Shown here: positions 4,807 to 50,245 of the stretch, piece by piece
Numbering within the stretch: position 1 is the stretch's first letter
Layout: each line of letters starts with the position of its first letter
Origin: Rhynchonema sp. JSB1_4
Taxonomy: Eukaryota; Nematoda; Chromadorea; Monhysterida; Xyalidae
Assembly (NCBI GenBank): GCA_030248065.1
Contig: JASAMV010008188.1
Location: forward strand, 1-64,000
Length of the DNA stretch: 64,000 bases
Direction: 5' to 3'
Position numbers and translations under genes: made by a program
The notes under the pieces: model-generated
What the model saw: the letters and a program-made list of their open reading frames with translations, nothing else
What the model was told of the DNA's origin: nothing
The model's database searches: none

Positions 4807-7800
4807 TTAGAAGTCAGCCATGCTGGCCGATTGACGCACATTGCGTGCACTGGCACTGGCCATCAACGCTGCATTGCCCCCACCAGGTGCCATCGAAGCC
4901 GAACTGCGTGTTTTGGCGCGCAACTTGGACACAGAGTTTTCGGCCATGTCCGCTCGCTCCTCGGCATCTTCGTACTGCTGCTGCAGTTGACGGTACTTGG
5001 ACAGATTGGTGGCGGCGACCTCTTCCTGCAAATTGATGGATTGATTGGCTTCAATTTGGTTTGATTGATTCACTGATTGATAGATTCAACATCGATTTTA
5101 AATTGAGTCGATCACTTACGGCCTCCTCGATCTGCCGTTTGTAGATCTTGACCTTCTGCTGCAGTTTGTCGATCAGATCCTGACCGCGATCGCTGTTCTT
5201 CTTGTCTTCCACAATCTGCAGATGAGCTTTTTTCACAGCAATCATTGGAATCAAAGCTATGAATGGATAGAATTTTAACCAGTGATGTAAATTGCGCTGA
5301 TTTGAAAGGGTAGCAAACCTGGAATTCCAGTTCCTTCGAGCGACGATCATTGGCACGTGCGTTCTTGTCGGTCTCCTGGTGCCGACGTTGCTCAGCATCG
5401 AGCTCCTGCTCCAGTTCACGGATCTGAACGTCGCAAGAATTCACTCATTCAATTGATCAGTTTTAAAATTACTATCCAATCAGTCGGGTATTCGTGTGAC
5501 AAGTGAGCTTACGCGAGTCTCCAGTTTCTGGATGGCGCGTTTGCCTCCCTTCAATGCGGCTGCCTCGGCTTCTTCGAGGCGAACTTGTAGTTCCTGAAAT
5601 GACGCGCATGTTGTGAAGTCGTCTTCTGAATCGTTTCAGCTTGAATCCTGTCACCTTGATTTGTTGTTCCAGTCCCTTTCGCATTCGCTCCACGTGCAGC
5701 GTGTGCTCCTGCTCCTGCCGCAATTCTTCAGCCAAACGTCCGGCATCGGCCATCGCTTTCTTCGTGCGCTCGTCGACCTGTTTCAGCTCGTTGTGCGCTT
5801 CGTCCAACTCGTTCTGAAGGATTTCGGGCGCGATTCAAGATATTCTAAGCTGTTTAAATCGCAAATGTAGCTTAAAAACTACACACATGCATGGCATTAA
5901 TTTCAGCCTCGAGTTTTCGTTTCTGAGCATTGACCGTCTCGACGTTCATCTGCGCTTCGGCAGCCATCGTCTGAGCGTCGGCCAGCTCTTGTTCGATTTG
6001 ACGACGTGAACGATCCGCCTGAATAAACATTGGCAAGGCATTCAAACAATCCACATCAACACGGCCGAAAGACTCTGTTAATATTGTCCTAATCTCTATG
6101 TATATGTACCTCGCCCATCTGTGAGACGAGATGGTCCTTCTCTGCTTGCAATGCCTGCCCGCGTTTCTCATTGGCGTTGTGCGAATCACGCAGTTCATCA
6201 CGCACACGTTGCTCCTCTTCGAGCATCATCTGTGAATCAATCGTTGTTTAACTGTTTGGTGAGAAGCCTATGAACCTTGTTGTAATTACCTGGATCTCAC
6301 GAATCTGTTCCTGATGTTTCTTGATGTTGCGTTGTGCATCTGCGTTCGCCTTGTTGGCGTGATCCAGTGCGATCTCCAACTCGTTGATGTCAGATTCGAG
6401 CTTCTTCTTGATTCTCAAAGCCTCCTGTTTGCCTTTGGTCTCGGTTTCGAGTGAAGCCTGTGGAACAGATATCGACTAATGATTGGTTGATCAATCGATT
6501 TTGTCGATCTATGAGATTGCACCTGCATCGATTCCAGCGCTCGCTGGTGGTTCTTGCGCGTGTTCTCAAACTCTTCTTCCTTCTCTTGAATTCTCTTCTC
6601 GATCTCTTGGCGTATCTGAGTGACTTCCATCTGTGCTCGGATCACTTTGCCCTCTTCCGCCTCCAACACGGTCTCAGCATCGCCCAGTGCCGTCTGAACG
6701 ATAATGTGATGTCGCATTTATGAAACATCAGCAAGCTAAGCAAATACCTGCAATTCTTCTTTCTCGACTTCCAATCGTTTCACCAGTTTCTGAATGTCGT
6801 GTACTGAGCGCGAACCCTCGCCCAACTGATCCGAAAGGTCCTTGATTTCTTGCGCCAGATTCTTGTTCTCTCGACGCATTCCGTCGATCGCCTGTAGGGT
6901 TTCCGTGATGTTTCATTCGGTGTGGAGAATTTTGAACTGATCAATACCTCATTCAGCTCATCACATTGATTCTTGTACTGGAACGATTCACTGCTGATGC
7001 TGCGATTGTCCCGTTGCAGTGCATCCAGTTCAGCCGACATGTCGTCACATTTGCGTTTCCATTCACCAATCACCTGTTCGGTGCTCTTCTGCTTCTTCTC
7101 CAACGTCAACGCCAGCGTGTTGGCCTGTGGATGTGTGAAGAATCAGGCTTCTATCTGTTTGGTGAACCGTGAAACATCAAGCACGAACCTTATCCACTTC
7201 CACGTGCGCATCTTCAACATCGGCCTGGATTTTGAACTTGACGCGTTCGAGCGCCATGATTTTGGTCTGCGACTGTGTCAACGTCTCTTGCAACTCGGTC
7301 AGACGTTGGTTCAGTTTTCGTCTGAAGCATCATGGCAACCAGTGACTTTGGAATCATTCTGTTTGAAACATCACTCGAACATACTTGGCGTCCTCAATCT
7401 CATCGATCTTCGACATTCCCTCGGATTCGAATTTGGCCTTCCATTGTTGAATCTCGCCATTCAACTTGCTGATCGTTCGCTGCAGTTCGTTCTTGGATTC
7501 AGTCTCTTCTTCGGCTTGATTTCGGAGACTGTCGTTTTCGTGCTGAAACGTTTCGGAACAGTTGCGTACCGTGGCTTATATGAAGGCGCACGTAAGGAAA
7601 GCATCTTGCTCACTTCAAGATTCTTCTTTTGCACAACCAATGCTTGTTTCTCGCGACATTCCTCTTCACCCATACGTCGAATCTCCTCCACCTGTTGACC
7701 GAAGGTGGTCTTGAGACGTTGATGCTGACTGAAAACATCAGGATTTGGACGACGTACTCATAATTAGGGTGATATTTTCGAAACGGTGTAAAGGTCATTT

Positions 7801-10137
7801 GGGTGTAAAGGTCGGTGGAAAGCTCGGTCGACAGCTCAGTGTGATAGACCTCGGTGTAAACTTGAAACATTTCACGTTAATAACAGGCAATGTTTCACGT
7901 TTACACCGAGCTACGCCGACCGAGCTTTCGACCGAACTTTACTCCGACCTTTACGCCCAACTGACCTTTACACCGTTTCGAAAATTGCACCCTTAGTCAA
8001 ATTCGAACATGAATTCAAACAAGTTGCTCCTACGCGATCTGTGATTCGATATCCTCCATCTGTCTCAACAAATCTCCATTTTCGTTGGTCAGCCGATTCT
8101 TTATCGTATTGAAGTCGACCAGTTGGCGCGATTGCTCCTCCACTTTGCCCTGCAGTTCGGCCACCTGCAGCTCGAATTGTTTGACTTGTTTCTCGTAGTC
8201 CTGTTTCATCTTCGTCTCTTGATCCATTGACGAATGCAGGTCCTCCACCTCGCGTTGAACCGTGTTCTTTTCCTTTTCGGCCCTGTAAATCAACATTTTT
8301 AAACTTGATGTTTCCTCAACTTAAACACAGCAATGCTCACTTTTGTTTCTGTTTCTGCAGAATATCAATCTGAGCGCTCAGTTCAGCGACGGCATCGTTG
8401 TGTTTCTTGCGTAGGCTCGACAGCTGGCCTTCGTGATTCATGTTGCTCTCCTGAAAATGGAAAGCAAATTTACGTTGGATCTACGTACATTACTACCAAA
8501 AACACCCAACTTGACCAATCAATCGATACCTCAAGATCGCGACGCATTTTGGCCAATTCAGTGTCGCGTTTCTTGTTCTGTTCCGACTGCGATCCAGCAG
8601 CGCCGTGCGCCTCATTCAGGCGGGACGTCAACTCATCCAGTTCACGTTGCAGACGAATCTTTTGGTCCTCGCTCTGTAAAAGATGTTTTAATATTCTGGA
8701 TTTAATTGCCAACATGTTTGAGATGTTTCAATGCACTCACACGAGATCGGGCCTGATGTTCGGCTTCGACTTCCTCCTCCAGCTCCTGGTTTCGCGCCTG
8801 CATCTCTTTGATTTGGCGTTGCGCCTTCGCTACTTTGCTTTGCTCCTCATCCAATTTGGTGCTGACCGAGTGCAGTTCTGTCTCTTTCCTGAAACATCAC
8901 TGAGTTAGAAGCAGCATTACATTTTAACTAATTAAAAGATGTTTTCAGCGAACCCAACACTCACTTTTTCAAATTCAACTCAATGTCGTGTCGTTCGCGA
9001 CTCAGTTCATCAAGCTGTTCCTGCTGCACTCGCAGTTCACCGTCCAACTTGCGCTTGGCCTTTTCGGCGTCCTGACGCGTCTTCTTCTCGCGTTCAACGG
9101 ACGAGGTCAGCTGAAATTCAATCAATTGATCAATAACGATCTATCAAGCTAATCAATCAATCGATTCAACACTAACATCGTCCAGTTGCTGGTCGACTTT
9201 CGATCGCATTTTGTTCATCGAGTTCACCTTGTCCTCTTCGGCTTGCAGATCTTCCATCAATTTGCGCGTTGCCTTGAAACATCAGGCAATGGGTACAATA
9301 GACAGATATCAGACATCACCAACCGCTCTCACCTCTTCCAACGCTTTCTTTTCCTTGCCGATTTTGTTGATCTGCTCATCTTGTTGGGCCATCTCGTCTT
9401 GCATCATCTTGATCTGCGTGTCGCGGCCCGATTTCTCGGTGTCGATCTGAGTTTTGAAGTTGATAATGTTTTTTTATTGTCTTTGTGGCTTTAATCGTTA
9501 ATGAAGTCGTTTCATTCTTGCTTCACTTATTCATCCAACCTTTCGCAAAGACAGCTCCATTTCCTGGATCTGTTTCTTGACTTCATTCTGATCCTGCTCA
9601 ACCACACGTTTCGTTTTCAGCAGTTCGGCGTTTTTCGCTTCCGTGTCCGCCACTTTCACGTTGGTTTCCTGGACAAAACGCATTAATCGGTTGGTTATTC
9701 CTTAAGTGTTCAGTTAAAAAGTGAAATGACTGACAGCAATAATCTTTTCTAGGTCAATACGACTCGCGTCCAACTGCTGTATCTTCTCCTCCAACTCGGC
9801 CAGTCCGCCTTGTTCCTTCCGCATTCGCTCGCGGAGCAGTTCCATCTCTTCATTCGTCTTCGTGATCTGCTCGGCGATGTTGTCCTTGTCGCCTTGGATC
9901 ACGTCGAAACCCGATTGCAGATTCTGATTGATATACCGATTGATTATCAGTTTTTCTGATCAGTCGATAAATCTTCCATTCACTGACCGTCACTTCGGCC
10001 TGCAGTTTCTCATATTTCTCCTGAATGTTCTTTTCCTCGAGCAGCGGCAGCACACGACCGTACAGACGCCACCAGCCCCAGTTGCGCAACTCCAGCCAAT
10101 GGCGAATGTTGTGTTGCATCACGTGACGCGCTTTGTC
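4807..10137 (-). other. myosin rod (coiled-coil tail) exons
   Basis: Exons 20-43 begin with the end of the lever arm ([16 protein letters not shown], Pro844) and then encode about 1119 residues of uninterrupted heptads with charged repeats. This is the form that dimerises and packs into thick filaments. Introns are mostly 50-110 nt, and from the intron at 7125 onward every junction is phase 0. The last exon has a short non-helical tailpiece rich in Ala, Ser and Gly, ending SASMADF. Confidence 0.85.
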
Positions 10138-13100
10138 CTGTGCGTTTGTGTAACGTTCCAAAAATTTGTGAATTGCACACTTCTATATTTCCACACACTT
10201 GTTTTGAAGAAACGCACAAACCTGCACGCGACGCTTGACGGCATCTTTCATCGCGAAGTAGTTCTTGATGTGCGAGTTGAGTCCGGTTACGATCCAGCAC
10301 AACGTTTCGTCACGCAGATCCTCCAGTTTCGCAAGCACACCGGCTTTGAAGAAGATCTGAAGCGTGTTGTGGGCTGGGTGATGTTTGAAATTAATATGCT
10401 TAGTTCTTATCAAACAGGGCAGGTGCTGCATGGTATAGAATTCTGCCCATAAATGCGAAGTTACATTTCATTTTATTCTGAAAAGCTTGACGCATTTGGA
10501 GAGCATTTTTGATTGAACACAAAAGATACCAAAGGTATGGGATCCGCCATGCCTGCATCTGACTGATTGCCTTTGTTTGTGCTTCTTCGCACAGGCAGGG
10601 ATGTTTTACTCAAGCACTTATGATCGCGCTTTTTGAAGGTCAATTGGTAAGAGGCGTTCTCACTGATAAAGACTGGCATAAACCCCTCACCCACTCAAAC
10701 AGGCCGAAACGGGCTTGTCAATCATCGCACAAACGTAATATCTAGATTGTTTCATCAAAATCTCGCAAATTACAGCATCAGAATCTTCAAATGGTACAAT
10801 AACGCCATTAAAACTCGGTCACCTTTGTTGCTCCCGGTCGAAACTCCTCCTCCTGCAGTTTCTTGTCCGACACCATTTTCTTCAGAATCGCCTTGGATGC
10901 AATCGTGTCATTCGGGTCGCTTTTCGCTTCGTTCGCTGCCAGGATCGTGTAACTGCAGTTTGTTTTCTCTTGCTTTGTATTATATTTTCTTTTTATTTAC
11001 ATTTAATGTTTTTGACTAACCGAGTGCGGAAATCGTTGTAGATCATTCTGTTCGGGAAACCTTTGCGACAAATACGAATGCCCTCCAGCACACCGTTGCA
11101 CGTCAATTGATGGAGCACCAATGGGGCGTCGATCAGACCTGGGGGGTCACAATGAATATTGGTACCACGTGTATAAGCAATGTGTTCTCGTTCATTTTTA
11201 CCATGTGTGCTGTTGTAAATTTTCCAGTAAGAGTAACAAACACACAAGACATCAAACTTGGCGATTCGGAAATCATCTCTAAAATGGAACAAAAATATTT
11301 TTAAGCCGCAAATTGTACCAGATTTCTTGCATTCATTCGGGATGATGCATCGAATGAAGTGGGGATGTGTCTGATGCAACATGCCCATCAACGAGTTCAA
11401 ACCATCACGGTACAACATAGACACCGTCATCATCGATGCTGATTTTCCCTTCTTCTTGCCACCACCTGAAACATCACAATATGAAATGAAAATTAATTAT
11501 AAGATGAAAGTGCCTAATGCAACCTTTTTACGGTGACCTTATATGTGGACAGTGTGCTTCGACCTCGAGAATAGAACCAGGCGGTCTTTTATCTAAAGCC
11601 ACCCACCGCCATCCTTCGATGCTTTTTCGGCTTTGAGAATTTCAGCCATCTCCTCCTGCGTCGTGAACGCGGCCCAACACGATGCCAACAACTTGTGCGG
11701 TGACTTCTTTAACACGGACACCGCTGTGTCATTGAGAGGGTCCTTGTTCTTCTCCAACCAATTCAACACGTTGTAGCGCACCTGGTAAGATGGGTGATGT
11801 TTCAGCGACGGTGGTCATCAACAGCAATAGCGATTTACTGAGCTTCCAAATTAAATTGCTGTACTTTTTATGTTTGCGAATAGCTACAGCTAGGTACATA
11901 CATATGACAATTCTTTTGGAAAACTTTCAACGGCGTTCCTACCAAAACAAGCCAACGCCCCCCTACATGCGCTTACGGATCAGGCAGAGCGGTGAAACCT
12001 TCCCAAATTGCCAGAGATACACATAGACAACCACCAAACAGTCATGCTTAGAGCAGGTGCAGTGATGGTGGTGCATTTTATTTTCCCAATTTTGTACGCT
12101 TTACCTTTCGGATCGAACTCATTGTCCTGTCTTTGCCAGTTTTATGCTAACCACCGTGAAACATTTTTGAAGCGGTATGATTCCTTGATGATATAAGCCT
12201 CAGCTGCAGACTGTTCAGCAGCATTACGGAGGCAGCTTTTGCAACATTACCATGGATCACATGACAACACAAGCTACAAGCCATGTTACGTGCCATCTCG
12301 GTGTGTTAGTGCTGACGATATCCTAATCCTGATGAGCCACCCGTCTGTGAAAAGTCGCAATGGAGTATACTTAACGATCGACTATAATTCCTCCTCTGTT
12401 CACATTGCACTCACCGTGCCAGCGTAATGACGCAAGGCGAAATGAGCCTCGGCCTGTTTGCCCTTTGGCGGTTTGGGCTTCTCAAAGTTCGGATGTTTGC
12501 CCAGATGTTGATCGTTCAGTTTCTGACCGTACGTCAAGTCAGTGGCTTTCGGCACGATACACTCCTCGTCCAACACTGAGATGATGCCAAGTGGCTGCAA
12601 GGCAAAAAGCAATCAGTCTAGTGAACCACTCGATCTTTTCCACTTTACACGGCAACGAACTGGCTCGATCATTCAGTTTCAACTCAGTCATACAGCCGTT
12701 CTGTGCTTTTCTGTTTGCTACAATGTTTGGTGGTTACCCACGGCTTGTGTTGGTACATATGCCACAACAGGTATGTAGTAATTCGACATCAGATCGGAGC
12801 TACCTGATCTCACAGTTCACCTTCTCAATCAATTCAATGCAGGCGGCCAAATCGAGACCGAAATCGATGAACGTCCATTGAATGCCCTCTTTCTTGTACT
12901 CTTCCTGTTCGAGCACAAACATGTGATGGTTGAAGAATTGCTGCAGTTTCTCGTTGACGAAATTGATCCACAATTGTTCGAACGAGTTGAACTGAAATGT
13001 CGAATTGAACTGTTTTGACGTCAGTGGTTGTGCCCGAAATCAAAACTGCATATGAGTGCGACTCATCCTTCCACTCTCTTGCCAAGTTGCTAGATTTTCC

Positions 13101-16100
13101 AGCACTTTCACACAATTGTTATCATGCCCATCGCTGACATGCTGTACGGGTTTAATAGTTAATCAGTGAAAACGCTTCACAAATTACTGTCTCACGAAGT
13201 GTTTTTTTATCGGATTTCAATAAATGACGAATAACCCAAATAACATGGTTCTTCTCACGTTAGGCTTATCGATGCATAAAGCCACAAGCGGGTGGGCGGT
13301 TATTAGGAGGCTTATGGCGTTCCTCGCATATTGAAATCTCCAGTCTAACTCACGTCAAAGATCTCGAACCCAGCAATGTCCAGCACACCAATGAATCGCT
13401 CGCGTTTCATGCCAGTGTCAACGGACAGCGTTTTGTTGCACCGACCAATCAACCACGTGAACATACGATCGTAGATGCCCTTGGTCAACGCGCCGATACC
13501 CCATTGCACCTGAATTGATTTTTGGTATTGTCGGTTTAGGTCACTATATGCGCATTTGTGCAGTTTGTTTGGCACCGCTGATGGGAAAAAATTGAGCGTC
13601 ACTGCGTGATTGACATGAATGTCTTCTGTTCATGACCCTGATCTAACTGGCATTGCACTTTCGTGAGCAGCAAGTGTGGTTTCATGATGATCTGATGCCG
13701 CCTCTTTTCGGTTTCATTTTTTCGTACCGACGATGCCCTGGTGCACCGTCTGTCTGTGAAAAACGGACCAAACGGGAATACAGACAACTATGCATTGCGC
13801 CATCATCAGGCTTTAACAAAAAATCGTAGCCGTATTCAAAGTCGTGGCCTCAATCGACATTATGTAACCCAAGTGCACCTACAGTACCTGTTCCAACGTT
13901 TGACCCTTGTTCACCCACTCGGTACCGACTTTCACCCTCGGCTTACACAACGCTTTGATAAACTCCTCGTGATTCACTTGGAAACAATGCGCGTTGTTCT
14001 TGGCGTCTGAAGGTGTTGGAAACACTTCGGTTGAATAGCACGTTTCAGAATTGTATTATCGCTTTGGCTTATGCAGGATGAAACTCCCATAAATTTGGAG
14101 CCAAGCCAATGTTCGAGCTACGTTTATTCTACAAATTCTATAGTACTCCCTGCAAATAATTGCTCGGTGCCTTATACCTTCAATGCCTTCGTTATCCGGC
14201 TCGGCCTGTTCGCCTCTTTGCTTGAACTTCATCTCTCCCATGTGCATGTTCGCAGCGCACAGCGTGTACAGATTGCTAGTCTCCTCGTCCGAAAATCCCA
14301 TGATCTCGAAGGCTTCCTGAAAGTAATATTCTTAATTTCCTTTCCACAAATGAAAACGAAAAGAAAATGACCAACTGACTTTGGTGAGTATCATCTCTTC
14401 AGTATCATTGACACCATCAATCGTCAGTTCAGCTTGTGCAATGAAATGGTAGTACTTGACCTCTTTTGTCAACTTGCACATTGCTGCGACGAAATGTAGG
14501 TTATGGGGTTTTAATAGTCTTTAAAAAATTAAAATATTTTGACTAATTGTCACAAACTTTTGACATTACTATCGGTGAACATTTGGTAGAAAATGTGGTA
14601 GCAGCGCTCGCCTGGCGCTTGACGGATCACGCGCGATTTCTCAAGCAGATCTGAACACAAGATATACAGGATTTAAACCTTTTCTTCTTAGAAAAATGAC
14701 AAGTTTTGATCAAACAGTAATAACGGATAAACTCACAATGCTCGATGTCACCGCCAGCCAGCTTGCCCTTCTCGTTGAACCAGGTTCGAATGAATTTACC
14801 TGTATTATTAAATTTTGGGATCATAAAGAATGTAAAAATTTTGATGAAATTTGCTGTAATCTGCGCAGTATTGTAAAGGAAGCTTGTTTTACAATTGTTT
14901 TTCACACAAACCAAAACGCGACGAGTTGTTGTTTCGCACAGTTTTCGCATTGCCGAAAGCCTCGAGCACAGGGTTAGTTTGCACGATTTGCTCTTCCAAC
15001 GTCGCCTGTGAGCAAAATGCTGGGCTTCGTGATTTCATTGTTGGTACTGATATGCTGTGAACCGCAATTTACATTATATATGTGTATGTACCCTGTTCCT
15101 CTCAAATGATGAAAGCCCTTGAGCGATATTTTGGTCGAAATCTGCCGTTTAAGCCGCGAAACTAATAATCGATGTGGTGATTATCTTTCTATTGGTCGCA
15201 CAATGACTTTATAAGAATTGGTCAAATTTTTTTCCTGAATCGCAAAGCAGGCTAGTGACGGGGCAATGACGTTGCGTTGCGCGATCACACACAAAACACG
15301 TAGTAAAGAGAATGTTTCAGACCTGCGGCAACGTGGTTGATCCGCTAGATTATTTTCAGCTGAAAATGTTTTGTGAGAATCACAAATAGCACAGTGGTTA
15401 AGAGTGACTGAACGTGAAAATCAGGATTGATTTTGATGAATTCTTATATGGTCATTGTGCGACCAATATCAATGGAAAATACAATATAGTGTGTCCCTGA
15501 TCTTGTCACTGCGCTTATATACCGTATGTACATACCTCCTTCTTTGCTCCAGGCACTTCCTCCTTTTTGGCAAGCGTCGACGCGCCGACCAATGCGAAGT
15601 ACGAGATGACCTTCTTGGTGTTCTCGGTCTTGCCAGCGCCCGATTCACCCGTGATCAACATCGATTGATTTTCGCGATCTGCGATTTGGTTAAAATTTGA
15701 GCGACAATTTTTTGGTATTTTTAATAGATATGTATGTACGTAGTTGATTTTATGAAATATTGATTGCCAATTTTATGCACCGGCGTGTTCACAAACGAAC
15801 GGTGCACCATCGTCAGTGCGAGCCAGCACACACACACGCCTTGGTATAAGTCGACAAAATGCACAAAACTAGTGAAACCCAGGTGTGGTTTAAAAACGAG
15901 CGGTCGGTTATTTGGTTAAAGGTTAGGTTAAGCTTTCTCGTTCTCTATGAGAACATAAAGCAATTTCTCACGCACTGATGGGCTCTCACGCGTCTGCAGC
16001 TAATCAGCGTGTAAGAGTTAAGGCCTAACTATACTTCGTTCTCTAAGGCAACACGAAACAAATTTTCCCACAGTGATTGGTTCTCACGCGCGCGCCAGCT

Positions 16101-21564: not shown

Positions 21565-21577
21565 GATGGCGGCGTTT

Positions 21578-31384: not shown

Positions 31385-31388
31385 AGTC

Positions 31389-34912: not shown

Positions 34913-37420
34913 ATTAACCATCAAATAACCTGAGCAAGTTTTTCATATCGATGTGAGAGCGAGGACCAGGCCATCTTCAAGATGAAACCAAAGCTAATAA
35001 TCGTAAGTACTCGATCTGTGCCGAGGTGTAAGAATAGCATATTTATAAGTGTGTTTTGAAGTTGACCAGCAGCTAGCATCTGACATCGGGTTTGTTGACA
35101 ATTAGCCACTTTTCTGGCTCATCCAAATTCATCCCGCAAGCGCCACAATTAATGTGCGTTATTGTTTCCAGCGCTGGCGGTACGCTGCTCATGTTGTCAT
35201 CCAACCCTGCCCTATCACCTGTGTGACTTTCTCTGTCGGTTCCCGGATTGTGAGGTGCCCCACATTGTGAATACTGGATGAGGGCAAAACCAACAATATA
35301 TGGTTGAACATTACAAAAGACAATAACGCCAGCCCCAAATTCTCGCATATCAATGTTGTTTTAAACAGCCAAACGTGTTTCACCAAAACTTTCTTGTGTC
35401 TGTGTCTACTGAATAAGGAGATTAGGTTTCTCTGGTTTGGTTTTCACAATGTAAGGTGCGTACAGGCATGTGACATCGTTGCAATTGAGAATAAACATAA
35501 TTGCAGAACAATTTTTTATTCGATTACCGCTGAAACGCTTACAGCTGACAAACACGGAACGGGAACATTGTAAAACAGAACAAAAGCATGAAACATAAAA
35601 AAGTGAATCAATTGGATATGGAATGCTCGTGAATATGAACGAACAAACGTGGTCAGACGCGCTTGAATAACTTGAATAAAACTTGAAAACTTGAATAAAA
35701 AGCAAACGAACGAACTTGAACCTATATTAATTGAAACCCGAACAAACCAGCAGCCAAAAAAGCTGTGTAAAACGCGATAAATTCCTGACAAAAGAGGAGA
35801 CATCAAACAAAACATAGCATGAAACATTGAAAATATTATGCAAAGATACAATATCTCGAAGTGATTCACACTTTTTGCGCAAAGATTGTGTCACAATAGT
35901 AGGCATAAATAGCAACCAAGTAGAAACAAACCCACAAACCCACTACACGATTTTTGGGTCGGACCCAGACTCGGATTCCTCAGACCCAGAAACATTTGTG
36001 CCTGGTGGTCACGTCCGACGGATCCCAAGTCCGAGTACAAAACAGTGGTCCGAGGATCAAAATCACGACTCCGATTCCAATGCTTTAATGCCAGGACACA
36101 CACAAGACCATACCCCGTACCAAACATCAAGTATAATTCAATCGGTTTAATGAATAGTTTACATCAATTGGTACATAACTCAAGGTGTTTGAATAAAGAT
36201 GCCGGGCTACAAATGCATTCACGGGTTCTTGTCCTCTGATAGACAAAAAAGCATGTCCACAACAGAATGATCAACGTCAGATTCGGTAAACACAATACAC
36301 ACATACAGCAGCTTGGTCACAATGAAGTTGTAGCGCAGATTCATTTCGATATCAGAAGTGCAAGTTATGAACACACACGTTCAAACACAATAGTCGCGTA
36401 CGAAGACAATACGATCACATTTGTATTCGGATAATATCAGGCCAAGCAAGCGCAACGCAAACAGATTGCAGGGAATTGTGACACAGAGTGAAATCATGGC
36501 GTGCCCCTTCAAAAAACGAATTCCTTGAGAAATCCGGACATAACACGGACACTATTCCAGTAAATGTTTGGCAAAAAATACAACAACAATGCTCATATAT
36601 GTGTGAAACATCAACGGAGATTACTTCGCCCGAACACATCACAACAACGCAGGTACACACACAGCAACGTACGGTTACAGTGTGTTGTGGTGATTCATGC
36701 AAGGGCATGATGGTGGATGCAACAGTGCGTAAAACAGCAAGTGCAAAACGGCAAGTCAATCGGCAGATCAAAGCAAATTCACTCACATAACCATCTTGAA
36801 CGAGAAACAGACTATTGCGCTCGTGGATCCAACACCGGACGCGACTCGGATTCTAACGTCGAGCGAGTTTTCAGGTGATTGTTGTTTTTGCGCGTTGCAA
36901 CGCCGGCCAATCTCGCCACGCCTCGCCACATATCAACCTGAAATAAAATTGATGGAATTTTAATGTGCTCAGGACCAAACTGTCTCATGCAACATGCGAA
37001 CGTGAAACATCAGCGATCACGCTAATCACACCAGACGGTTGTGTAGGCTTTGCATATACATCTGCCTTGAGTGCTACACTGGCGATGACTTGGTACACCG
37101 GAGAAAAGTGGATGAAATCCTCCTTTCGCTTGGTCGATCAGTGGGAAAACATAATATTTTGTGCGAGCATATAAAGCCGTGTCGTGTCCGTTCTAGCGGT
37201 GGCGCATGGCAAATTTGTGCCATCGTACTGACGATGACTTGGTGCACCGCCCATCAGATACATAGAAACTGGACGCAAAGGATCGATACATGCACACGAC
37301 GCATAAAGTAAATTAAAATAAACTTTGAACAACGAACGTTGCACTCCGACAAGATGTTGTAGTAGACCGGTGTACGTCGATTTGCCGGTGGCGGTTTGCA
37401 CAGCACAAACTCTTGGCCAT
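34913..37420. other. no supported gene
   Basis: Open frames of 100-123 codons (35516-36150, 36415-36790) overlap on both strands, have no domain and no partner exons. Two exact TGATGTTTCA-type sites occur at 36604 and 37003. Otherwise I see no RNA gene or clear repeat. Confidence 0.45.
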
Positions 37421-40400
37421 TTACAGTGAATGTCGACGCTCCTGAATATCACATGTGTGAACGTTAATAACTTTAATGGAAGAAGCAGCGACTAAAAACA
37501 AAGCCCGATATAAATAATACTTGGCGATCGGATCGGACCTGATCCAATCGATTTTGCCCCTGTGTCACGTGCACGTGTCATGTTTGAATCAAGAAAAAAT
37601 AAGGGATTTAGGCAGTTACTAATTTCGACTAAAGTTGTTCTTTTTAGGTCTGATCACAAATTTTTGTCGAAAAGAGCAACATCACTAAATCACTTATATC
37701 ATTAATGCAAGAATCGCACATGATCAAAGCATTTCTGATCTGGTCTGATCACCAAGTTTGATGCAGAGTTTCAATTGTCTTGCAATGTTCTGACATAACG
37801 TGGAACTTCCAGTGTTTTCTAACGCAAACAACTAACCATTAATTGGATTCACATTAATGGCGCTCATCGCAAGGTCGAGCTCTGGCCCAAACTGTCCATC
37901 GAGCTCTTTGAAGATATGTGTAAATTGATTCCACAGGTCGTTGACGGCTTGCAGCTGCAATAAAAGTGCATGATATGGCCGAGTTGTACATATTGCGCGC
38001 TCGGAATAGAGCTTTAGGATGACCGGAAATGTTTCTGAACCTGGTGGCCCTAATTTGCGCAGAAGGTCTTTCCAAGCATTCAGGTACTAAAACTCCTCAG
38101 GTAGATTTCCACATCAAAACCAATTGGTCTTTTCCGCACCTTTTAAGCCGGTACTAATCGATTTTAGTCAGGTTAGAAAACGAAGTCGCGTTCAGCCGAA
38201 CCCGATGGCAGCCAGGACGACAGCAAAAGGATTATGTCTCAAGGATGTGCAATCATCGTGTAGTACATACCAAGGCAACTCGCAAAAACCCGTTTATGTA
38301 TGACCAAAAAACCACTCACCCGCGTCGGACGTGCCTGCAAACCTGACGGGCCCGGCTGCGGTGTGGCTGGGGTCTGAGGCTGTTGTGTTCGCTGAAGCGT
38401 CTTGATTTGGTCCGCCAACGGTTTCAGCGCATCGCCGAGTAGGTCTGCGAAGAAACACAATTATTTCATTTGAATTGGTGTTCGAAACATCAAAAAGCCA
38501 CTATGAAAACTTTCTAATCGAAAAAGTGCGTGTGGTCACAAAACAGTGGTGAACGTGCAATGATTCAATGATGCAACGATGCAATGATGACCAAGATAGA
38601 TCCGATGACGAATTTTGATACCCACGTTGTTGGAACACAAGCCACTCACCTTCGAAGATGTGTGCAATCTTCGCGAAGTCTGAATCGGACAGCCCGCTGT
38701 TGGTGCGGCCTGAAAGTGAGCACAAGAATATACTGATGATGTGATTCCAATTCCACCTAGCACTGGCATCATATGAAACACCAGCCAGTTAGCTGCCACC
38801 ACACTGTCCGTCTGCTCACAGCAGGGTGATTGCTGTCGTGTTCCAACAAGGAAAATTGGCTAAGGCCTCATCAGTGGTGTTGTTTACCTGCAGTAGCACA
38901 GAAATGCACTAATTTGCCGTGATTGCTATCCACCGTACTCTTTCCACATCAGGTTTAAGTTCTAGTTAACAAAGGAAACCGACGCCTGAGCTGTGTTCAC
39001 CTGCTTCAAACTATCCATACCAACACAAAATGATTGCTCATGCTTTTTTACTAAAAAACATATGTGAAATTTTACTTAAAGCAAGTCAAAAGTTTCCCGT
39101 ACCATGATTGTTGTTGTCGTCAACCACATTGAAGGTAATATCGTGCGTTGCTGTGGTTCCACCATTGGGCATATCTGAATAGGCGTAAAGTCTTGGTTGG
39201 CCCCTGGTTTGTGTCAAAACACCAGTCTGATGTTTCACACAGAAATATACAATATGAATACGACCTTTTCGGTTGTCGAAAATGATGACATCAGTAAATC
39301 CAATCCTAGCACAAAAAGTCACGCGATCAAGGAGATCCAATCGACAAATTTTGATATTACATAGGAAGGTGTTGTGAAGTCGACTTTGTCGATGGTTGGG
39401 TGCAGTGCTGAGGTTGTGGGTCCGGGACATGTAGTTCCATGTATTTTGCTTATTTTTACCCATAACTGAAGAAACATCATAAACCAACCTGAAGTCGTAC
39501 CATCGTCCACATTGGCGTCTTGGCTGTCGTTGTTTGTGAGCAGGTCGGGAATGTTGGCCGGTGCGACACTGATTCCGGACTGAAAACCACGAACGCAATG
39601 AATAATGCGCATAATTGGCCAACGGTGACCGAGTTGGACCGGATGTGCAGTGCCGGGAACTATTTGTGTCATTTACATACCTATGTATTTTGATGATGCC
39701 ACTGATTCGTTCGACCTTCTCTGAACAACTTTTGAACAAAAAATTGGGGCCATCAAATCACGATGAAACTTCAACACAAGAACGGCCATGTTCAACGGCT
39801 TAGGTGTGTCGCGGGCACTATTATATGATTGCACGGCGCAAAACAGCGGTGTGAAAGTGTATAGAATTGTCCAGCTCACCTTGATGGCCCGAATGCATTC
39901 TTCGTATGTACGATGCAATTGATGCACCCAGGTGCTCGGCTTTAACCGGAGTCGACGTGCGACCTCGTCACGAAGGATACACCAAGCCCTGTTTGCCGTG
40001 TCCATATCCTCCTCGCCCTGTTTTCGCCCGTCAACCACTACCCGAAACACTCCCCGCTGCTGCAGTGGCACAAATCGAATGAAGTTTCTGGCGCCGATAT
40101 CAAAGATCAAAGTGGCCCTGGCATCTTGAGCTGAAAAAATATGGCTAATGGTTTTGTCGTCAAATCATCTCGTCAAAGAAAGTCATCGAACACATGAGCC
40201 CCAAATGAGCGCGAAAACTAACATATGTGTTCGACGACTTTATTTGACGAGATGATTTAACCACATTACTATAGGCCAAAAATATGCGCCTACTGTATGT
40301 ATGTATGCGTATGCAGATGCAACCGATGCTGACGAACTCTGTGAGTCTAATTATTTTAGGCGAGCATAAAACTTGTCTTTTCTCTTTGGAGTTTTCTTTG

Positions 40401-43400
40401 GCTCTCAGGCGCAGTGGCGGATCCAGCTCATGGGGCCAAACCCCAAAAGTCATTTTTTCTAGTGCATGTTTGATTTTTCCGAAATCGTTGTGTCTGGTGC
40501 TCGCTTATAATTGGGCGATTTAAAGCTAGATACCATACTTATGAGCATGTGCGCGTATAGCGCGCGAAATCTATGCACTTTTTGCGAGCGCGACAGTCAA
40601 ATTTCAATGATACCATAAATATGGGTGTATCTGACGCGCGAAGCGCGCAATTTGTGGACTTTTGAAGCATATTAGAGTGAAAATCCTACGCTTTAAAGGT
40701 TTTTCCTTCTTTTCACCGAAATGGTGACCTCCTTTCAGGGGCCAATTTGACCAAAGAAGGATCTATGTAGGTCCCCTGGATCCGCCAGGGAGGGATTAGT
40801 TTGACTGCATTAGTTGCGCGCATCGCCCTAGCCATTCGAATCAACTAAATCCGTCATGTATTCTGCCTGCTAAGGCCACCCTGTGTAACCAAATTGGGGG
40901 TATTCTTGAGACACCCTGTGTAGGTACATAACATAGATGCAAATTACATTGGTGCAAAAATAAAACAAACAATGAACAGGAGGAACATACCCGACAGTTG
41001 CTTGTCCACGTGTGACACGTAGAAGATGAACTGCCATCGTGCTGAGTTCGGTGTGGGTCGCATCGCCGTACGAGCCGTGTCTCCGCGCGCCGTCTGCGCC
41101 GATCGCGGTAGTCGCGCCAATCTGAAAAATGATGTTCAGTTTTTTATATGTGCACAACACCATCGCTGAGCACCCATGCACGTGCACGCATCCACGTCAC
41201 AGGATAAAACTATAGTTTTGCCTTTTCGTGGTGACATGATTGGAAGACACTTTCAACATTTTCTGTCATCATGAGGAACTGCGAAACTACGTAACAAGCT
41301 ATACATATGTACATAGGCAGATTGGGAACCAAAAATTGTTGGTCTCTATGATCGATGTTTTATTGTATGCGGTCACTATCAAGAGGCCACTGTAATTCAA
41401 TGGAAAGCAATAAATGCACTTACGAAGTTGGTGGAGCTGTTCGATTCACATGACTTTGATTTGACGTCGTGGGGTGCACTCGTGTTGGAGTCCGAACAGC
41501 AGGACGATTTGCAGTAGAGGCACTGGAGCTGCTGCAAATAACGGTCCGGTCTTGCCTTGATTTTACGCCACTTTCCGCGCACTGGCGGTCAATATGTACC
41601 GGAGTCACTCATGCCACCGGTGCCAACCTGCGAAAAATCTTGGGAAAAAACTTCAACATCAATACAAATTAGAGAGGTCAAAAAACCGCCAAACATTTTT
41701 GCGCCAATCACCCGTCCGGACCAATCGTCAAGTTTGCAACCGGTGTCATTTTTTATGTTGACAGACTGCATTTACGAAATTCTTCCTTCAGCATATTGCC
41801 TTTTAAACTTAAATTTAAATTTAAATTCAAATCGCACTTACGTTGTGGTGTTTTGCGTGTCGTTGGTAGTATTTACTCGAATTGCGTGTCTGAAAAAGAT
41901 CACAGAGGATGTGTTGTTGCACCATGTCTGTCCAGCAGAGCACGTGCCACAACAACGTTTTCGCGACGCGACCGTGCTTTATATCAACAGATTGACAGTT
42001 AGCATTATGGAGACAATTATACCGCATTTTTCCTTATAAAAGATTGGACAGTCGGCGTTTATTAGGAGAAATAAGTGGGGTCCACCGTCAAAAGTTTCGC
42101 AATTAACACTGCGCGTGGTGATCGGTTCGAATAAGTCCGTTATCATATTTTTCATGAAGTATACACGTCTTCGAAGTTTACAGATGCCACTGTAATCTCA
42201 ATGAACCGGGAAGTTATTCCCAAACAAAAGTTATTCGTTCAGGAAAAGCAAATTTTACGCTGGTCAGAATGACCAGTACAGATCCGATCCGATGAGATGT
42301 CCAAGTGTGACTGACGAAAGGCCGGGGGCCAAGAAACATGGTTGAATGCACTTGCCGGTCAATCCAATCCAGCAATTGCATCACGAACACATAGGTGTCG
42401 GTTGTGTCATCATCACCTTCTTCACGCAATGGATTGCGTATCCGGTCGGTCGGACGGTAATTGACCGGTGGACTCAATTGCTGAAACATGGCAGCTAATG
42501 TGCAACGCGGAAAACAGGCTGTTGCCGCACCACAGGGTTAGAAAAAATTCATCAGTGATGCGTCTGGTTGACGGGGTAGCGTGTCAGATTACAAAAATGG
42601 CATACATTCGCCGCACACCCATAACGTGAAACGACAGTTGGGTTAGCCATAATCGTCGTTAACCCTAAATTAGAACTTTATAGCTACTGCATGCGTAAAT
42701 ACAGTGAATATTCTTCATGATGAAACAAAGTGCGAATCCCGACCGATCGAGGTTGATTGCAGCGAGAGTATTCTACCGTACAAAATACATGGACAAAGTT
42801 GTATACAAGCCACAAAGTTCACACACCAGCATCTGATGCGACACGAACGAGCGTTTTTCGGCGAACACACCCGATTCGCACAACGCGCGCGCCCGATTGT
42901 AGATTGATTCGGGAGTCTCCTGCCGGTGCACTATTACGACACGGATGGGCAAAGTCGGCAGAGTGTCGTAGTCGACGTTCATTTCCGCTGGCGGTCGTTC
43001 AGTTGATAACAGGTCGAACACCTCAATGAGCGCAGCGCGGTTGCCCGCCGTCAGCTGTCGGCTCAGATGTTCATCTGAAACCTTGTGATGTTTCAATCTG
43101 GTGAGTGAGTAGTGCGGAGTCTACATTGAACGACCTGGAGCCAAATGTGAAGGCTTGTCATTGGCGCATTCGCACCGGCGCGATGGCCTGGTGCACTGGC
43201 TGAACAGGCAAAAACGTGCAATTAGAAACGCGCTCCGCTCCCAACTCTACAGTTTTTCTGAGAGCAGCATCTTGCGATAGCGTTGATGCATTAAATTTTT
43301 TGACCAGTGTATAAATACATACATATAATGTTCCCAACGTGAAGTGAGGCAGCCTTTACCCTGTAGCTGAAACAATGGTAAAAAAATCAGTGCCGCAATC

Positions 43401-46400
43401 TATGACATAATTTCGCGGATGCCCAGCATCTGCTAAAAGTTGATTATTATGCCCCTGGTTACATGATTCCAACAGCACGTGCGCAAGCCTGCGCTTGCTG
43501 TACGAATTTTAGCCGATTGCCGGAGCTTTCTGCATGGAGTCCCGGGAGCTCTTACCAGAGATAAGTGGAAAATTATTCGAAAACGATTCGTAATGGAGCC
43601 TCTGGCGACCTCTATTCCGGGAAGGGGGCATCAACTAAAGTCTGTTCAGATTGACAATAATTCCCTTGCCACTTACCGGTAATCGTCGAAGGACAACGAT
43701 GAATGAATATTATTTCGCATGGCTTTGCCCTCGGGCCCTTTTGCTGAGCAATTGACGTTGGTGGTTGTTGTCCACCCCCATTCTGTTGTTGTCTGCGCCC
43801 GCCTCCGGCATCAGTTTGTCCCGTTTGGCTGCCAGATGCGGAGCCAGACGACCCTGATGCCAACGACTGAGAACCGGAACCAAAACCGGTAGTTGACCCA
43901 GAATTGGAGCCGCCGGGAGGCCCACATCTGCAAATCAACATGACTAAAATGAGAACACATTCTGCGGCCCCAAATTTGGGACCGGTGACACTCTCTTGCA
44001 GAGGAACCTAAAGGTAAGGCAGACTGCATAACATTAATTCCGGCCTGATTGGTAAAAAATGAGTTGATCTGAGTTTCTCAATGGACTCGTAAGACAGACC
44101 CAAAATGATCAACTTTTTAGGCTGGCCGAAATTAGTAGTTCAAAATAAACAATGCCACGTGATCAAAGCGGATCCGCCACGATCCAGATAACAAAGCTTG
44201 ATATTCTCCTATTTGCTACGGTTATCAAGGTTCTTAGCTGAAGAACGAAAACTTTCGCTAATGAAGCGCAATGTCAAAAATAGAACTGACGTGATTGGCT
44301 GAGGTTCATGCGCACGTTGATCATTCAAGAAACAGTCATGCGCTACGATCGGCAGCTCTGGTTCTTCGGGAGCACCCTGAAATAGAAATTGTTAACTTCT
44401 ACGGACAGGGCTTATGTTGTTTGTTCAGGTGAAAACTCTTTTTCTCAGATAAATCTGGGATAAAAGCATAAAATATATAAATACTTAGATAAACAAACAT
44501 TTTCATCTGGCACTTTAGTCTTCGCCGTCGGTGATTTCAAGCGCTCCACATGATATTGAAGCTCGACGTCTGGTAGACAGCTGTCCCATTCCAAATTATC
44601 GACTTCGTCCGTATGCTGACGACGTTTATGCTGCAAAAAACTTGCTCAAATTCCTCGAGATAAGGACAAAAATATATGGTTTAAACAATTTAGCATGTGT
44701 TTGAGCAGTTTTGTCACTTTTTTAACAACACCTAGCAAAATTTCTGGCTGTCTGCCTTGGCAGTTTGTCATAAAGCTGGCCCCTTAAGAACCGGGCACAT
44801 CCGTGGCTTCCCTCTGTCGTGTGATGTTTCAATATGTACACAACCAAGCAGTTGGCTAGTTGGGTGCCATATTCAAATTCAAAGCACAAAAACGGGTAGC
44901 ACAAACCAATTTGTGGAGCAAAGCAATTCGGGCAAGTAGATCGTCACGACACAATCGAGTTGGCTCGCCACTCTTTTTCGATGGGGAGTACACGAACCGG
45001 ATCAGAAGATGGTCGTCATGGACGGACTGAAAATGAAATCAACATTTGTTTTGGTGTTTTGGACGTTTGACAACTCGATCCACATGCTGATTGAGGCAAG
45101 CAAGGATACAACAAGCACATATAAGAAGACACACAAACTGGTACTATCACGCTGAAAAGTCACACCTCTAAAATGGTAGCAACTCAAACGCGTAAAAATT
45201 TTAGCAAAACACCAACCGTCAGCTGAACTCCAATTTTGTCAGCGGGATCTTTCGTTTGTACCAGCCAAGTGGGCGGGCTCAACAACCGATTATGCATCAA
45301 CGTCGTCAGGATCGCCTGCAGTTCGTTCCAGCACAATTCCTCGGCTGCAAAAAAATAATTGCACGTCGCTTGAAATATTGATGGGCCGTTAGAAACTGGG
45401 AAACAACAAACCTGACTGTTGTTGTACGTGTCGTTTCGGCCGATTCTCAACTCCTGATTCTTGATCAGAAACTGTCCGTTGTCGTTTATGCGACCGTCGA
45501 GGCTGAACGAAAAGTGGCGTCACTATTGATGGACGGGCCTACATACATGCCAAAAATTAGCGGCAACGCTATTTCAGACGCATGTAAGAGCCGTGTCACA
45601 AAATACAGTGTTTTTAGTGATGAACACATGCGAATTACAGTACCCAGGTGAGGCTTTCTGTCTGTGATGCCATTCCTTTTGGCCTTGGTCATACGAGTGC
45701 GTTTGATCACCTGACCGCGATATAGCCTGTCTTCCACAACATGGCTCAAAGGAATTGTCACCGAATAACAGTGATAAAAACAAATGTATATTCATAATAA
45801 CACGCAGCGACTTTGGTGACGCGCTTTTCACAACAATTATAGCATGTGTGCATATGGTTTTCCCTTTTCGACTTGTTTTCGCAGAGACGGGCGGTGCCCG
45901 AGTCAAGTCATGGTCAGTGCGAATGCACAACACTGCCGCGTGACCACTCAATACATACGACCTGGATATTTACAACAAAATATTTTTTTCTGACCGATTG
46001 GCAAAATTCCTCATCATTGCTCTTCCATGGCAATGCAATCGGAACACGGCTAGCGGCGTTGTCTTTTCCGTAGATCGGACTGGGCGGCTGAAATTAACAA
46101 TCAGACCATTTGATCCGACAAAGTTGCAGATGCAGCGCCACGAACATGACAATATGGTCAAGGTAAGCGATCTGTCTGGCTTAGAGCGTGCAAACAATCT
46201 GATGGCAAAACAGCACGCAAGACCAGGTAATCGTCCGTCAGCGCGCCATGCAGTTACTCAAATGGACAAGTTTGTTGCCACGTCATTCTGATAGTGCTGT
46301 CTGTATAAAACTCGCACGCAATTCGTCCTAATTGCTGGTCTCGGTGGAGGAAGAGGGAGTGCAGGCAAATTTTAACTGATTTTCTGCATCTCTATGAAAC

Positions 46401-47937
46401 ATCACCCGACAATTTCATGTCAGTTCGAGCACTGCTACCCGACAGCTGCCCAGAAATTCAAAATAATATAAATAACGAGTTTTAGAAACATACCTGCCAA
46501 TATTCAACATCCATAGCTGCGCTTGAATACTGATCGATTCCCTGTTGCGATGGATGTGGATCGCACGCATTCGACAGAAGCTGCAATGGGAAAACGATAA
46601 CATATAACTAGTTGTCAGCAGTTGTCCGATGTTTCAGTATTCAGCTCTTCAGACCGATCAGATCTGGCCACATATTCGGACCCTTGATAACACACGGATG
46701 TCCCGGGCTTCAGGTGAGATGTCAGGTGACAATGGATGATGGTAAACACGAAGACGGATGATGCAGTGTAGCTAACTAGGCAACTTTTAGCTAGCTAACT
46801 GACTAAACTTGCACAAAACGCAATAGATGACCACAAAGTGAAAAAACGAAAAAATACCGCGCATACCTGAGCTTGACTGAGCACACCGATGTCGGAACCA
46901 GATTGTGAAATGGCCGATTCACTCACGGTAATACCCGACTGCGTGTCACATTGGATACTGGATTGGCGCCGCACCTGGAAATTGAGGCCCACCGTATGTT
47001 TTGCACACTCGTCATTATTTACAGCACACTATCTAATAGTCCTCGAGTTATTCGGTCGCTATGCGATTATCCGCGGTTATCGACAATTCTGATGTTTCAT
47101 GAACGGACAACAAATGCACTACGTCGCCGTGTATGGTAGCAGGATGAGTTACGGTATGCACATAAATCGGTGCTTTATAGGCCTCATAAACCAGTGTGAG
47201 TGCGACACAATGCGTGAGTCGAAAAACTTGTTTGTCATGTGATAGTGTTTCTCAAGATTCGATCTGACCTAATATTATTATTATTACAAAATAATTGCTA
47301 GCACGAAATAAATAATAGAAGCTGAGCAAAAAGCCATGGCAACGATCTGTGTACTCGCCTCGATTGAACTAGCAGAATTAGCCACACACCCGGACATGTG
47401 AATCAAGCTGGACAACGAGTTGAGACCACCATTCTGAAAAGGACTGGATGAACTTTTACTTTACGTTCCCACATCAACACGCCACAAACTGGAACTGACA
47501 TGTGATCATCGACGGAAGAAGTGGTAAACGACCTAACAAATAATCCGCTGGCTGAATGATTTCACACAGGATTCCACATCTATGAACTATGAACACTGCA
47601 CTCGATTACTTACACGAACAAAACAAGTGTTGACGTTAGATTTTTAGGGTCAATCCTGCTGGTCAAACATTCTGGCAGAAAAGTCAACGTTCTCATGCTC
47701 AATGTCACCAAGCCATAGTTGCTGGCGTGGACATGTTAATTGGGTAAAACAGTCTTTATGGGTCTTTGAAAGAACACTCACGTGGTTGACTCGTAAGCAC
47801 GCCAGCTCTTGATCATTGAGGTAGATACGAATGTTGCCAGTGACCAATGCGTCCACAGTGCACCAGCAGTGAAGCTTCACGAACGCGTTGTCGAAATGCG
47901 GATCAAGTCGCTTTGGCAGAATCGCGACATCAGTCAC
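37421..47937 (-). CDS. exon-rich gene for a Ser/Thr/Gln-rich protein of unknown function
   Basis: I do not recognise this protein. Exons supported by splice sites and open frames are 47782-47937, 47359-47433, 46867-46974, 46494-46580, one near 45644-45720, 45412-45502, 45217-45344, 44499-44630, 44291-44376, 43677-43927, 42827-43074, 42352-42480, 41842-41889, 41424-41531, 40991-41121, 39880-40130, 39489-39579, 39103-39174, 38650-38709, 38320-38444, 37853-37954 and 37421-37441 (TAA). Phases agree from 45217 down to 42352 and from 41842 to the stop. Joins around 45.4-45.7 and 41.9-42.3 kb are unresolved. Features are a Gly/Ser/Gln-rich linker (exon 43677), an Asn/Thr-rich stretch (41424-41889), a compact basic segment (RAWCILRDEVARRLRLKPST, exon 39880), a Pro/Gln-rich stretch and a helical C-end (ELDLAMSAIN then ERRHSL). 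No signal peptide or membrane span was seen. A transcription or signalling scaffold is possible, not shown. The 5' end is unknown. Confidence 0.55.
40162..40258. mobile_element. 97-bp foldback element in an intron
   Basis: AAATCATCTCGTCAAAGAAA at the left pairs with the right end (TTTATTTGACGAGATGATTT), and the inner GTCATCGAACACATG pairs with CATATGTGTTCGACGAC. It leaves a loop of about 25 nt. It lies in the intron 40131-40990 of the minus-strand unknown gene. No ORF. Confidence 0.7.
40412..40788. mobile_element. non-autonomous element with CAGTGGCGGATCCAG ends
   Basis: It begins CAGTGGCGGATCCAG and ends CTGGATCCGCCAG, in the same intron as the foldback at 40162. CAGxGGCGGATC-type ends are common among animal hAT-like non-autonomous elements; I use that as a class hint only. 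Adjacent GGGGCC and GGCCCC blocks extend the inverted repeat. It has no transposase. Confidence 0.65.
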
Positions 47938-48144
47938 CTGTGAACAAGATTATGAGAGATGAACGTTCTATCAAGCGTGATGCAACCTACTTTACACAAA
48001 TTTAGTAACACCTGAATTCTGCATTGCAACCACAGTACGGAATAAAGTAGATATTTCCACTGCTGGCTTGGTTGGAATGTGCACGTGTGGTGCAGTCGAC
48101 CCTCACTATGGTGAGCCTCCAAAAATGAATTATACCTACGTATA

Positions 48145-48496: not shown

Positions 48497-48499
48497 TGT

Positions 48500-48784: not shown

Positions 48785-50245
48785 ACATAGTTCGCTCCCA
48801 AATGACAAGAACCATGAAGCGCCAAATTGTTATGCCCTACAATGTGGTCTATTCTCTTTAGTGAACGAAAACGTCGGACCCTATCGACTCATATTTCAGT
48901 GAACACATCGAGTGTCCGGAAAATCGTCACAAAATAAAATGTTAGAAAAAAGAATCGATCACACCCAAAACCCGCACACACATCATGATTTAATGGATTT
49001 AAAGCGCGGGCGAATGCGTCAAATAAGCAGACTTCTTCGCACTGCTTCGGAATTTTCGCCACGTAGACACATTGGTTCACCTCGGCTCCGCCCTGAAAAA
49101 ACGGGAAATTTGTTTTTCGAAGATTTTGTTATTTATCAAAATTGACTCGTTTGATGCACAAGAAGCAGAGTGACACTGATTACATGATTATGTCTGTGTC
49201 GGCAAAAGAAAATGGTTAAAAAATGAGAACGATTCAACAACCCTTATTTGGACATGAACTGCGGTTACCGCGGCCATGTCGCGTATTTTAAAAGTAAAAT
49301 ACACATACCGAACAGTGACCACTTTGACTTTGACTACGAAATGCTGTGATGTCACACAGCTCAGTTAGTGTGCGAAAAAATAATGCAAAAATAACGGAAA
49401 ATTATGTACCTTCGTGAAAGCAGACATTGACCATTTGGGCACTGACTTTGTCTTGGTGCGCGTATGGACGGAACCACGCGTCATTTCACAAACGGAGTTT
49501 TTCGAAATCGGAATTAGCAGCCGGTAAGTTTTCTGATGTTGATATTATTCACGAAACCGGACAACATCAGCACGTGGGTGCGTGCGGCAAGCAGAACCAA
49601 AAGTTAGCGACCCTAAATCTTGGTTTGAGTAAAGTGAGACCAACCACACGCAAAACACAACACCAGAACAAGGGAGAATGCTTGTACATGTCACAACAGG
49701 CAAAAAACAAAACAACACCACATGGTCACGCGAAGAAGAATGTAACAAAAACGTGGGCTATTTGGCCTGTCACAGGCATGGGTTTAGTTCAACGTGTGGT
49801 GAACACAGAAGTCGAACGGATTAGACCTATGATTGCGTCTTGACGGAAACAATGTACATTGTGTCCCAAAAGTACCCTGATTATTGCCACTCTTGCGGCC
49901 TTAGCAAGAAGTAGACAACTCGGATAAAGATGAAGTATACATAGCGCATGCGATTCTGCGTGTGGCTACTACCATCACATTAATTCTCCACACAAGTCTG
50001 ATGTTTCAAGACCGGTTTTTGAAGCCCCATTAGACCAGAATCTTATTAAACCGGCCCAGCCGCTATTGTTTTTTGGTTTTCGTCCTCGGTTTTTTCATTT
50101 ACATCGCTTGTTGGCATCGAGATCAAGAACATTATTTTTGACGAACGTGAGCAAAGTGGCGATTACCCAACGAAATCGATTCGTCAACAAGATGGTCTAT
50201 CGGGAACAAAACTGTTCGATATTGACGCACATCCACACATGATAA

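Follow-up and report, generated by a model that had tools for sequence, protein, structure and literature searches.

A ten-base word in genome-wide excess in a nematode, its likeness to the small nuclear RNA promoter core, and a possible role as a dispersed piRNA mini-promoter

The Ruby motif of C. elegans requires PRDE-1 (PMC4015492), and its core, GTTTC, is derived from the SNAPc motif of small nuclear RNA (snRNA) genes (PMC6436959). In Plectus, the motif of PIWI-interacting RNAs (piRNAs) and the SNAPc motif of snRNA genes are almost identical (PMC6436959). In Pristionchus, piRNA loci are scattered over the introns of genes that are active, and 21U-RNAs are detectable for 20% of the motifs that lie in active domains (PMC6436959). 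According to published surveys, clade V and Plectus possess PIWI and motif-driven piRNAs, whereas both are missing in clades I and II (PMC4323106, PMC6436959). The present analysis concerns a stretch of 64,000 nucleotides from Rhynchonema sp. JSB1_4 (contig JASAMV010008188.1, positions 1 to 64,000; hereafter the window) and the ten-base word TGATGTTTCA, which recurs in it and throughout the assembly. This word contains GTTTC. With the Ruby motif of type I piRNA genes in nematodes, which reads CTGTTTCA in C. elegans (PMC6317315), it shares TGTTTCA with its GTTTC core, a kinship with the SNAPc site, a very large number of separate copies and the presence of PIWI in the genome. It differs in that the core here is the whole 10-mer and that no YRNT signal was seen.

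The excess of TGATGTTTCA is real and genome-wide. A search of both strands of the window returned 27 exact copies, and these were the ones listed by the first-pass annotation, with every position and strand exact (27/27) and none beyond them. Windows obtained by dinucleotide shuffling held 0.48 copies on average and 3 at most, and the earlier chance estimate of about 0.1 has to be raised to about 0.5. When up to one mismatch was permitted, 52 sites were found in the window against 10.7 expected. The genome-wide count had been proposed as the test on which the excess could fail. In the assembly (203.9 Mb, 5,747 contigs) the exact word occurs 37,556 times (18,829 and 18,727 by strand), far above the 345 occurrences (172 and 173) of the control, which is the same word read backwards. 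The single-mismatch count, proposed as well, gave 92,371 sites with at most one mismatch, compared with 15,893 for the control. The enrichment over the control amounts to 109-fold for the exact word and to 3.5-fold on average for the one-mismatch words. Chance as the origin of the copies was rejected, both in the window (27 against about 0.5) and genome-wide (37,556 against 345). The density is uneven, since the window holds 27 copies where 11.8 would be expected at the genome rate. For 13 contigs besides the window, both the length and all copy positions were known; 5 copies were counted in 77 kb of one (C22) and 16 in 31 kb of another (C7). The matches listed by a literature search for TGATGTTTCA or its complement included none on this subject, as judged by title and start of abstract, and Rfam, applied to the window with gathering scores as the cut-off, gave no match.

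The position of the word upstream of snRNA genes points to a function. Rfam models identified 27 snRNA loci (9 U2, 10 U1 and 8 U5; U2 locus L044 and U1 locus L054 lie below the Rfam cut-off), and the best upstream match to TGATGTTTCA was exact at two of them (U1 loci L050 and L053), had one mismatch at 12, two at 7 and three at 3, and was absent at 3. The matches occupy a fixed slot on the transcribed strand, at about -44 to -48 overall and at 44-47 bases upstream for those with at most one mismatch, as in GAGCTTGATGTTTCAGCGCAGAATGACTACCCC (U1), AGCCTGATGTTTCACCGTTGGTATAAAGG (U1, with a TATA-like word) and TGCCTGATGTTACACTCGAGAATGACTACCC (U5). At the genome density, a five-position slot over 27 genes would be expected to hold about 0.03 matches with at most one mismatch, and 14 were observed, although many of the loci are paralogues and do not make 27 independent trials. 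Three snRNA families agree on the element, U2 in part. The three loci devoid of it are two near-identical U1 copies with divergent upstream DNA and a weak U2 match. The U1 copies L048 and L052 (C5667, C1907) share 99.4% identity over 1,936 bp, their upstream DNA lacks the promoter element, and they are perhaps non-functional.

The flanks of the dispersed copies were compared in a sample of 97, later 104, non-redundant sites with near-duplicate flanks collapsed, a non-random sample drawn from the window, from the first contigs listed and from loci fetched for other reasons; copies in snRNA promoters were included in the 97 and excluded from the 104. As the first-pass annotation had claimed, the flanks differ from site to site, and they are unrelated in both samples save for weak preferences beside the core. 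Among the 97 sites, T stands at -4 in 45, G at -2 in 45, C or G at -1 in 66 and C directly 3' of the core in 37; in the 14 snRNA elements with at most one mismatch, the same positions carry these bases in 7, 9, 11 and 13 cases, respectively. The preferences of the dispersed sites are those of the snRNA elements. TGATGTTTCA very probably is the core of the proximal sequence element, the SNAPc site, in this genome. The occurrence on the same strand and in a fixed slot upstream of snRNA genes lends good support to the earlier suggestion of a binding site that is recognised by its sequence throughout the genome, and it makes SNAPc the likely binder. The likeness to the snRNA proximal sequence element covers core, strand and spacing in the U1, U5 and partly the U2 genes. 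However, the snRNA genes add a second half (GACTACCC) and mostly carry TTATGTTTCA or TGATGTTACA, whereas the scattered copies are strictly TGATGTTTCA; the main form at U1 genes is not among the dispersed words.

A search of the assembly for the Pfam Piwi domain gave 54 exon matches on 17 contigs, and 11 short pieces from ten of these contigs were read, the others being C3368, C4595, C3630, C815, C4479, C5352 and C1227. Seven contigs (C2817, C802, C3198, C3982, C2124, C4344, C2030) appeared AGO-type by eye, and C971 and C4966 WAGO-like. One fragment among the ten contigs, a C-terminus of 52 residues at C1663:21043-21198, is of the PIWI clade, as it scored 59.2 bits against 'Protein piwi' (6kr6), at most 27.9 against HrAgo1 and at most 23.9 against Argonaute-2. 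The AGO fragment from C3198 showed the reverse among solved structures, scoring 119.7 bits with Argonaute-2, while no Piwi protein exceeded 49.8. The PIWI matches on C1663, C3368 and C4595 share the same exon layout and may represent duplicated genes or uncollapsed haplotypes. SNAPC3 matches were found on two contigs, C1090 and C2701.

The placement of the copies was best followed in a muscle myosin heavy chain gene. The model of this gene was made by hand and reads without a stop through its 38 exons; it leaves out the 5' part of the gene. The gene and the copies in the window are as follows.

4807..15005, minus strand, muscle myosin heavy chain gene (MYO-3 group), 38 exons, hand-made model
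6721..6730, minus strand, copy in myosin intron 6694-6747, sense
6906..6915, plus strand, copy in myosin intron 6892-6947, antisense
7170..7179, minus strand, copy in myosin intron 7125-7188, sense
7364..7373, minus strand, copy in myosin intron 7322-7384, sense
8890..8899, minus strand, copy in myosin intron 8889-8964, sense, forming the splice acceptor
9275..9284, minus strand, copy in myosin intron 9273-9332, sense, ending two bases before the exon
11467..11476, minus strand, copy in myosin intron 11466-11606, sense, forming the splice acceptor
11795..11804, plus strand, copy in myosin intron 11782-12414, antisense
18967..18976, minus strand, copy with no open frame of at least 45 amino acids over it
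25922..25931, plus strand, copy probably at an intron end before an EGF-like exon (by eye)
27110..27119, plus strand, copy in an EGF/LDLa-like frame by eye (A-D-V-S-N)
27757..27766, plus strand, copy where an LDLa-like frame ends, either coding or at the start of an intron
28889..28898, minus strand, copy antisense in a Ser/Thr-rich plus-strand frame (HETST)
29254..29263, minus strand, copy antisense in a Ser/Thr-rich plus-strand frame (IETST)
29619..29628, minus strand, copy antisense in a Ser/Thr-rich plus-strand frame (VETSP)
30692..30701, minus strand, exact match
32511..32520, plus strand, exact match
33505..33514, plus strand, copy in a frame reading DTMMFQ, which resembles the frame at 34782
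34782..34791, plus strand, copy in a frame reading DKMMFQ, which resembles the frame at 33505
36604..36613, minus strand, exact match
37003..37012, minus strand, exact match
39228..39237, plus strand, exact match
43086..43095, plus strand, exact match
44822..44831, plus strand, exact match
46395..46404, minus strand, exact match
47090..47099, plus strand, exact match
49999..50008, plus strand, exact match

In the myosin gene, eight copies fall in 4,934 bp of intron and none in 5,262 bp of exon (p = 0.003). This placement suggests that the copies occupy sequence that is free to vary. Six of them are sense and two antisense, so that the presence of both orientations, noticed earlier, is seen even within one gene. 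Several copies had been described as lying in coding exons. This agrees with the predicted open frames at 27110, 28889, 29254, 29619, 33505 and 34782, the last two being similar membrane-protein frames, but not with the myosin gene, where all eight copies are intronic. The copies at 28889, 29254 and 29619, in Ser/Thr-rich frames reading ETS, are exactly 365 bp apart; tandem duplication as the cause of this spacing was rejected, as the surrounding DNA has 25-33% identity in register and is not homologous.

We lean slightly towards the reading that TGATGTTTCA acts as a dispersed Ruby-type piRNA mini-promoter with a Pristionchus-like layout. The core of the proximal sequence element would be used alone, dispersed over introns and other free DNA, and would promote short RNAs. 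Each copy would be bound by SNAPc together with partner proteins, transcription by RNA polymerase II would begin on the strand of the word some 45 bases downstream of it, and the short transcripts would be loaded into PIWI. Point mutation in free sequence would supply new copies, and weak selection would retain them. With 37,556 exact copies, the GTTTC core is present in thousands of separate places, as is typical of Ruby, and the number exceeds the more than 15,000 loci of C. elegans (PMC7917550) and the 25,883 piRNAs of C. briggsae (PMC9683057). The P-type loci of Pristionchus pacificus are likewise dispersed and intronic, and there, too, many motifs have no detectable RNA (PMC6436959); they differ in belonging to another branch of nematodes, and the clearest case in the present genome is a muscle gene. 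Plectus likewise has a piRNA motif that resembles the SNAPc motif of snRNA genes, but the motif there is bipartite and occupies about 3,000 sites (3,082 in P. murrayi; PMC6436959), compared with 37,556 copies here. Among the functions that the first-pass annotation had offered for the word (pairing, recombination, origin or silencing), a silencing role would fit best, although it would act through piRNA transcription and not as a tag on the DNA; nothing pointing to pairing, recombination or origins turned up, and no test was aimed at them.

Several results at the dispersed sites weigh against piRNA transcription from them. A Ruby-type promoter would be expected to carry a YRNT initiator near offset 44, counted from the first base of the word. 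Among the 104 sites, none of the offsets between 38 and 50 shows an excess of YRNT (maximum 12, mean 7.8, standard deviation 2.7), and 165 sites including variants likewise show no outstanding YRNT offset in this range. The shorter YR is found in 37 of the 104 sites at offset 44, the position of the U1 start (mean 27.1; 2.0 standard deviations above it), but it is equally high elsewhere, with 38 at offset 41 and 40 and 43 at the unrelated offsets 18 and 86. The lack of an initiator signal in the 104 sites means that only a minority can fire at one fixed spacing, by our estimate at most roughly one in eight, and a count over 104 sites would miss a small active fraction. No AT or other composition signal was detected downstream of these sites. 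The second half of the snRNA element, 3' of the core, is not enriched at the dispersed sites in the snRNA register (as GACTA or GACTACC), and a bipartite promoter of the Plectus type was not found in them. Moreover, in the assembly the commonest U1 form, TTATGTTTCA, is near background (2,024 against 1,728 for its control, 1.2-fold), and the U5 form, TGATGTTACA, reaches 3.2-fold (1,549 against 477), about the average of the one-mismatch words; therefore, the word at the dispersed sites allows less variation than the element at snRNA genes. It may need a partner protein of its own, as the Ruby motif needs PRDE-1. The densest stretch seen belongs to a muscle gene, although in Pristionchus the piRNAs are found preferentially in genes active in the germline, and some copies stand in predicted open frames (27110; 28889, 29254 and 29619; 33505 and 34782). 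The word TGATAA at offset 18-23 reached 4.4 standard deviations; it was picked after looking and was not used.

Short words can also spread through a genome by other routes. HIP1 in cyanobacteria and the uptake sequences in Neisseria are thought to have spread by molecular drive or through a genome-wide role. An origin of this kind for TGATGTTTCA, either by drive or by a non-transcriptional role such as biased repair, recombination or chromosome organisation, would make the snRNA likeness a side effect or a case of shared binding. It would account for the very sharp excess, which falls from 109-fold for the exact word to 3.5-fold for one-mismatch words and 1.2-fold for the main U1 variant, for the spread of copies over introns, open frames and elsewhere, and for the absence of a start-site signal. 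However, it predicts neither the fixed-slot, same-strand occurrence at U1, U5 and U2 genes with shared flank preferences nor the link to GTTTC and PIWI, and we consider it rather unlikely. More doubtful still is a role outside the piRNA pathway, in which SNAPc or another factor would bind the copies to serve, for example, different short noncoding RNAs, enhancers or chromatin structure. Forkhead proteins are reported to recognise the Ruby motif (PMC6317315), and binding of this sort would suit a word that is identical to the proximal sequence element core, has no YRNT initiator and is enriched in introns of a muscle gene, as well as the published clade I and II nematodes without piRNAs (PMC4323106); on the other side stand the PIWI-clade gene and a number of copies, 37,556, above what ordinary regulatory sites would lead one to expect.

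A repeat family, a splicing signal or chance is very improbable as the source of the copies. The first-pass annotation had noted copies overlapping splice sites, and this holds for those at 8890 and 11467, which form myosin acceptors (TGATGTTTCAG, followed directly by the exon), and nearly for that at 9275, which ends two bases ahead of one (TGATGTTTCAAG, then the exon). Furthermore, an acceptor, TTGATGTTTCAG, is kept downstream of the U1 copies L048/L049, where the flanks are 69% identical. The overlap is not general, however, as G follows the word at 19 of the 104 sites, which is no more than base composition predicts; a splicing signal as the general cause was rejected for this reason, and it also sits badly with the two orientations within one gene and with a count 109 times that of the control. 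Homologous flanks, which a single repeat or transposable element family would leave, were looked for at the 97-104 sites and were not found. When duplicated segments were compared, TGATGTTTCA was kept in nearly all pairs, with one pair differing by one base; these pairs do not demonstrate selection on the word because most of them are near-identical throughout. The satellite at 59228-64000 (unit of 91 bp, 52 copies, 98% matches) holds no copy, as had been noticed before.

The closest match of the myosin, among the 120 matches listed, is Romanomermis culicivorax at 63% identity, followed by other nematodes. In a quick tree of 23 rows (that of the window and 22 hand-picked from those matches), the window myosin lies within the nematode MYO-3 set of ten rows (support 98) and outside a seven-row set with Plectus and Rhabditida (support 100); its branch is long, and the tree leaves its order relative to Romanomermis unsettled. 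Four tandem units of TTAGGC, the telomere word of nematodes, were matched 698 times in the assembly, overlaps included, against 0 for the control. Many short stretches of TTAGGC stand inside contigs among the matches listed, e.g., C568:77388-86096, often paired 30 bases apart. The genome probably is that of an early-branching nematode, a placement that rests on one gene. It is possible, a little short of probable, that an early-branching nematode outside Plectida and Rhabditida kept PIWI, driven by tens of thousands of dispersed promoters with the snRNA core. PRG-1/PIWI is reported absent from nematode clades I and II (PMC4323106), and among the open-licence papers listed when the literature on Enoplea, Enoplida or Dorylaimia was searched, none was seen to report PIWI or piRNAs. 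If dispersed piRNA promoters are the correct explanation, the motif-driven piRNA system would date from the root of the phylum, weak selection or drive would maintain the word wherever sequence is free, and it would have copy numbers above those found described for other worms. A PIWI gene and a Ruby-like word outside the set of Plectus and Rhabditida would push the system rootward and provide an early form for comparison. With the same core at snRNA genes and at tens of thousands of dispersed sites in one genome, the co-option model becomes directly testable.

Some further features were noticed. An inverted-repeat element at 7729-8033, with AATGTTTCA in one arm, lies in a myosin intron, and sequence resembling it (AATGTTTCAAGTTTACACC, AATGTTTCACGTTTACACC) occurs near two U2 genes (L040 and L041). 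At 16756-17252 and 52229-52281, runs of A/T around CGTT or TGTT form short arrays that repeat every 16-21 bp.

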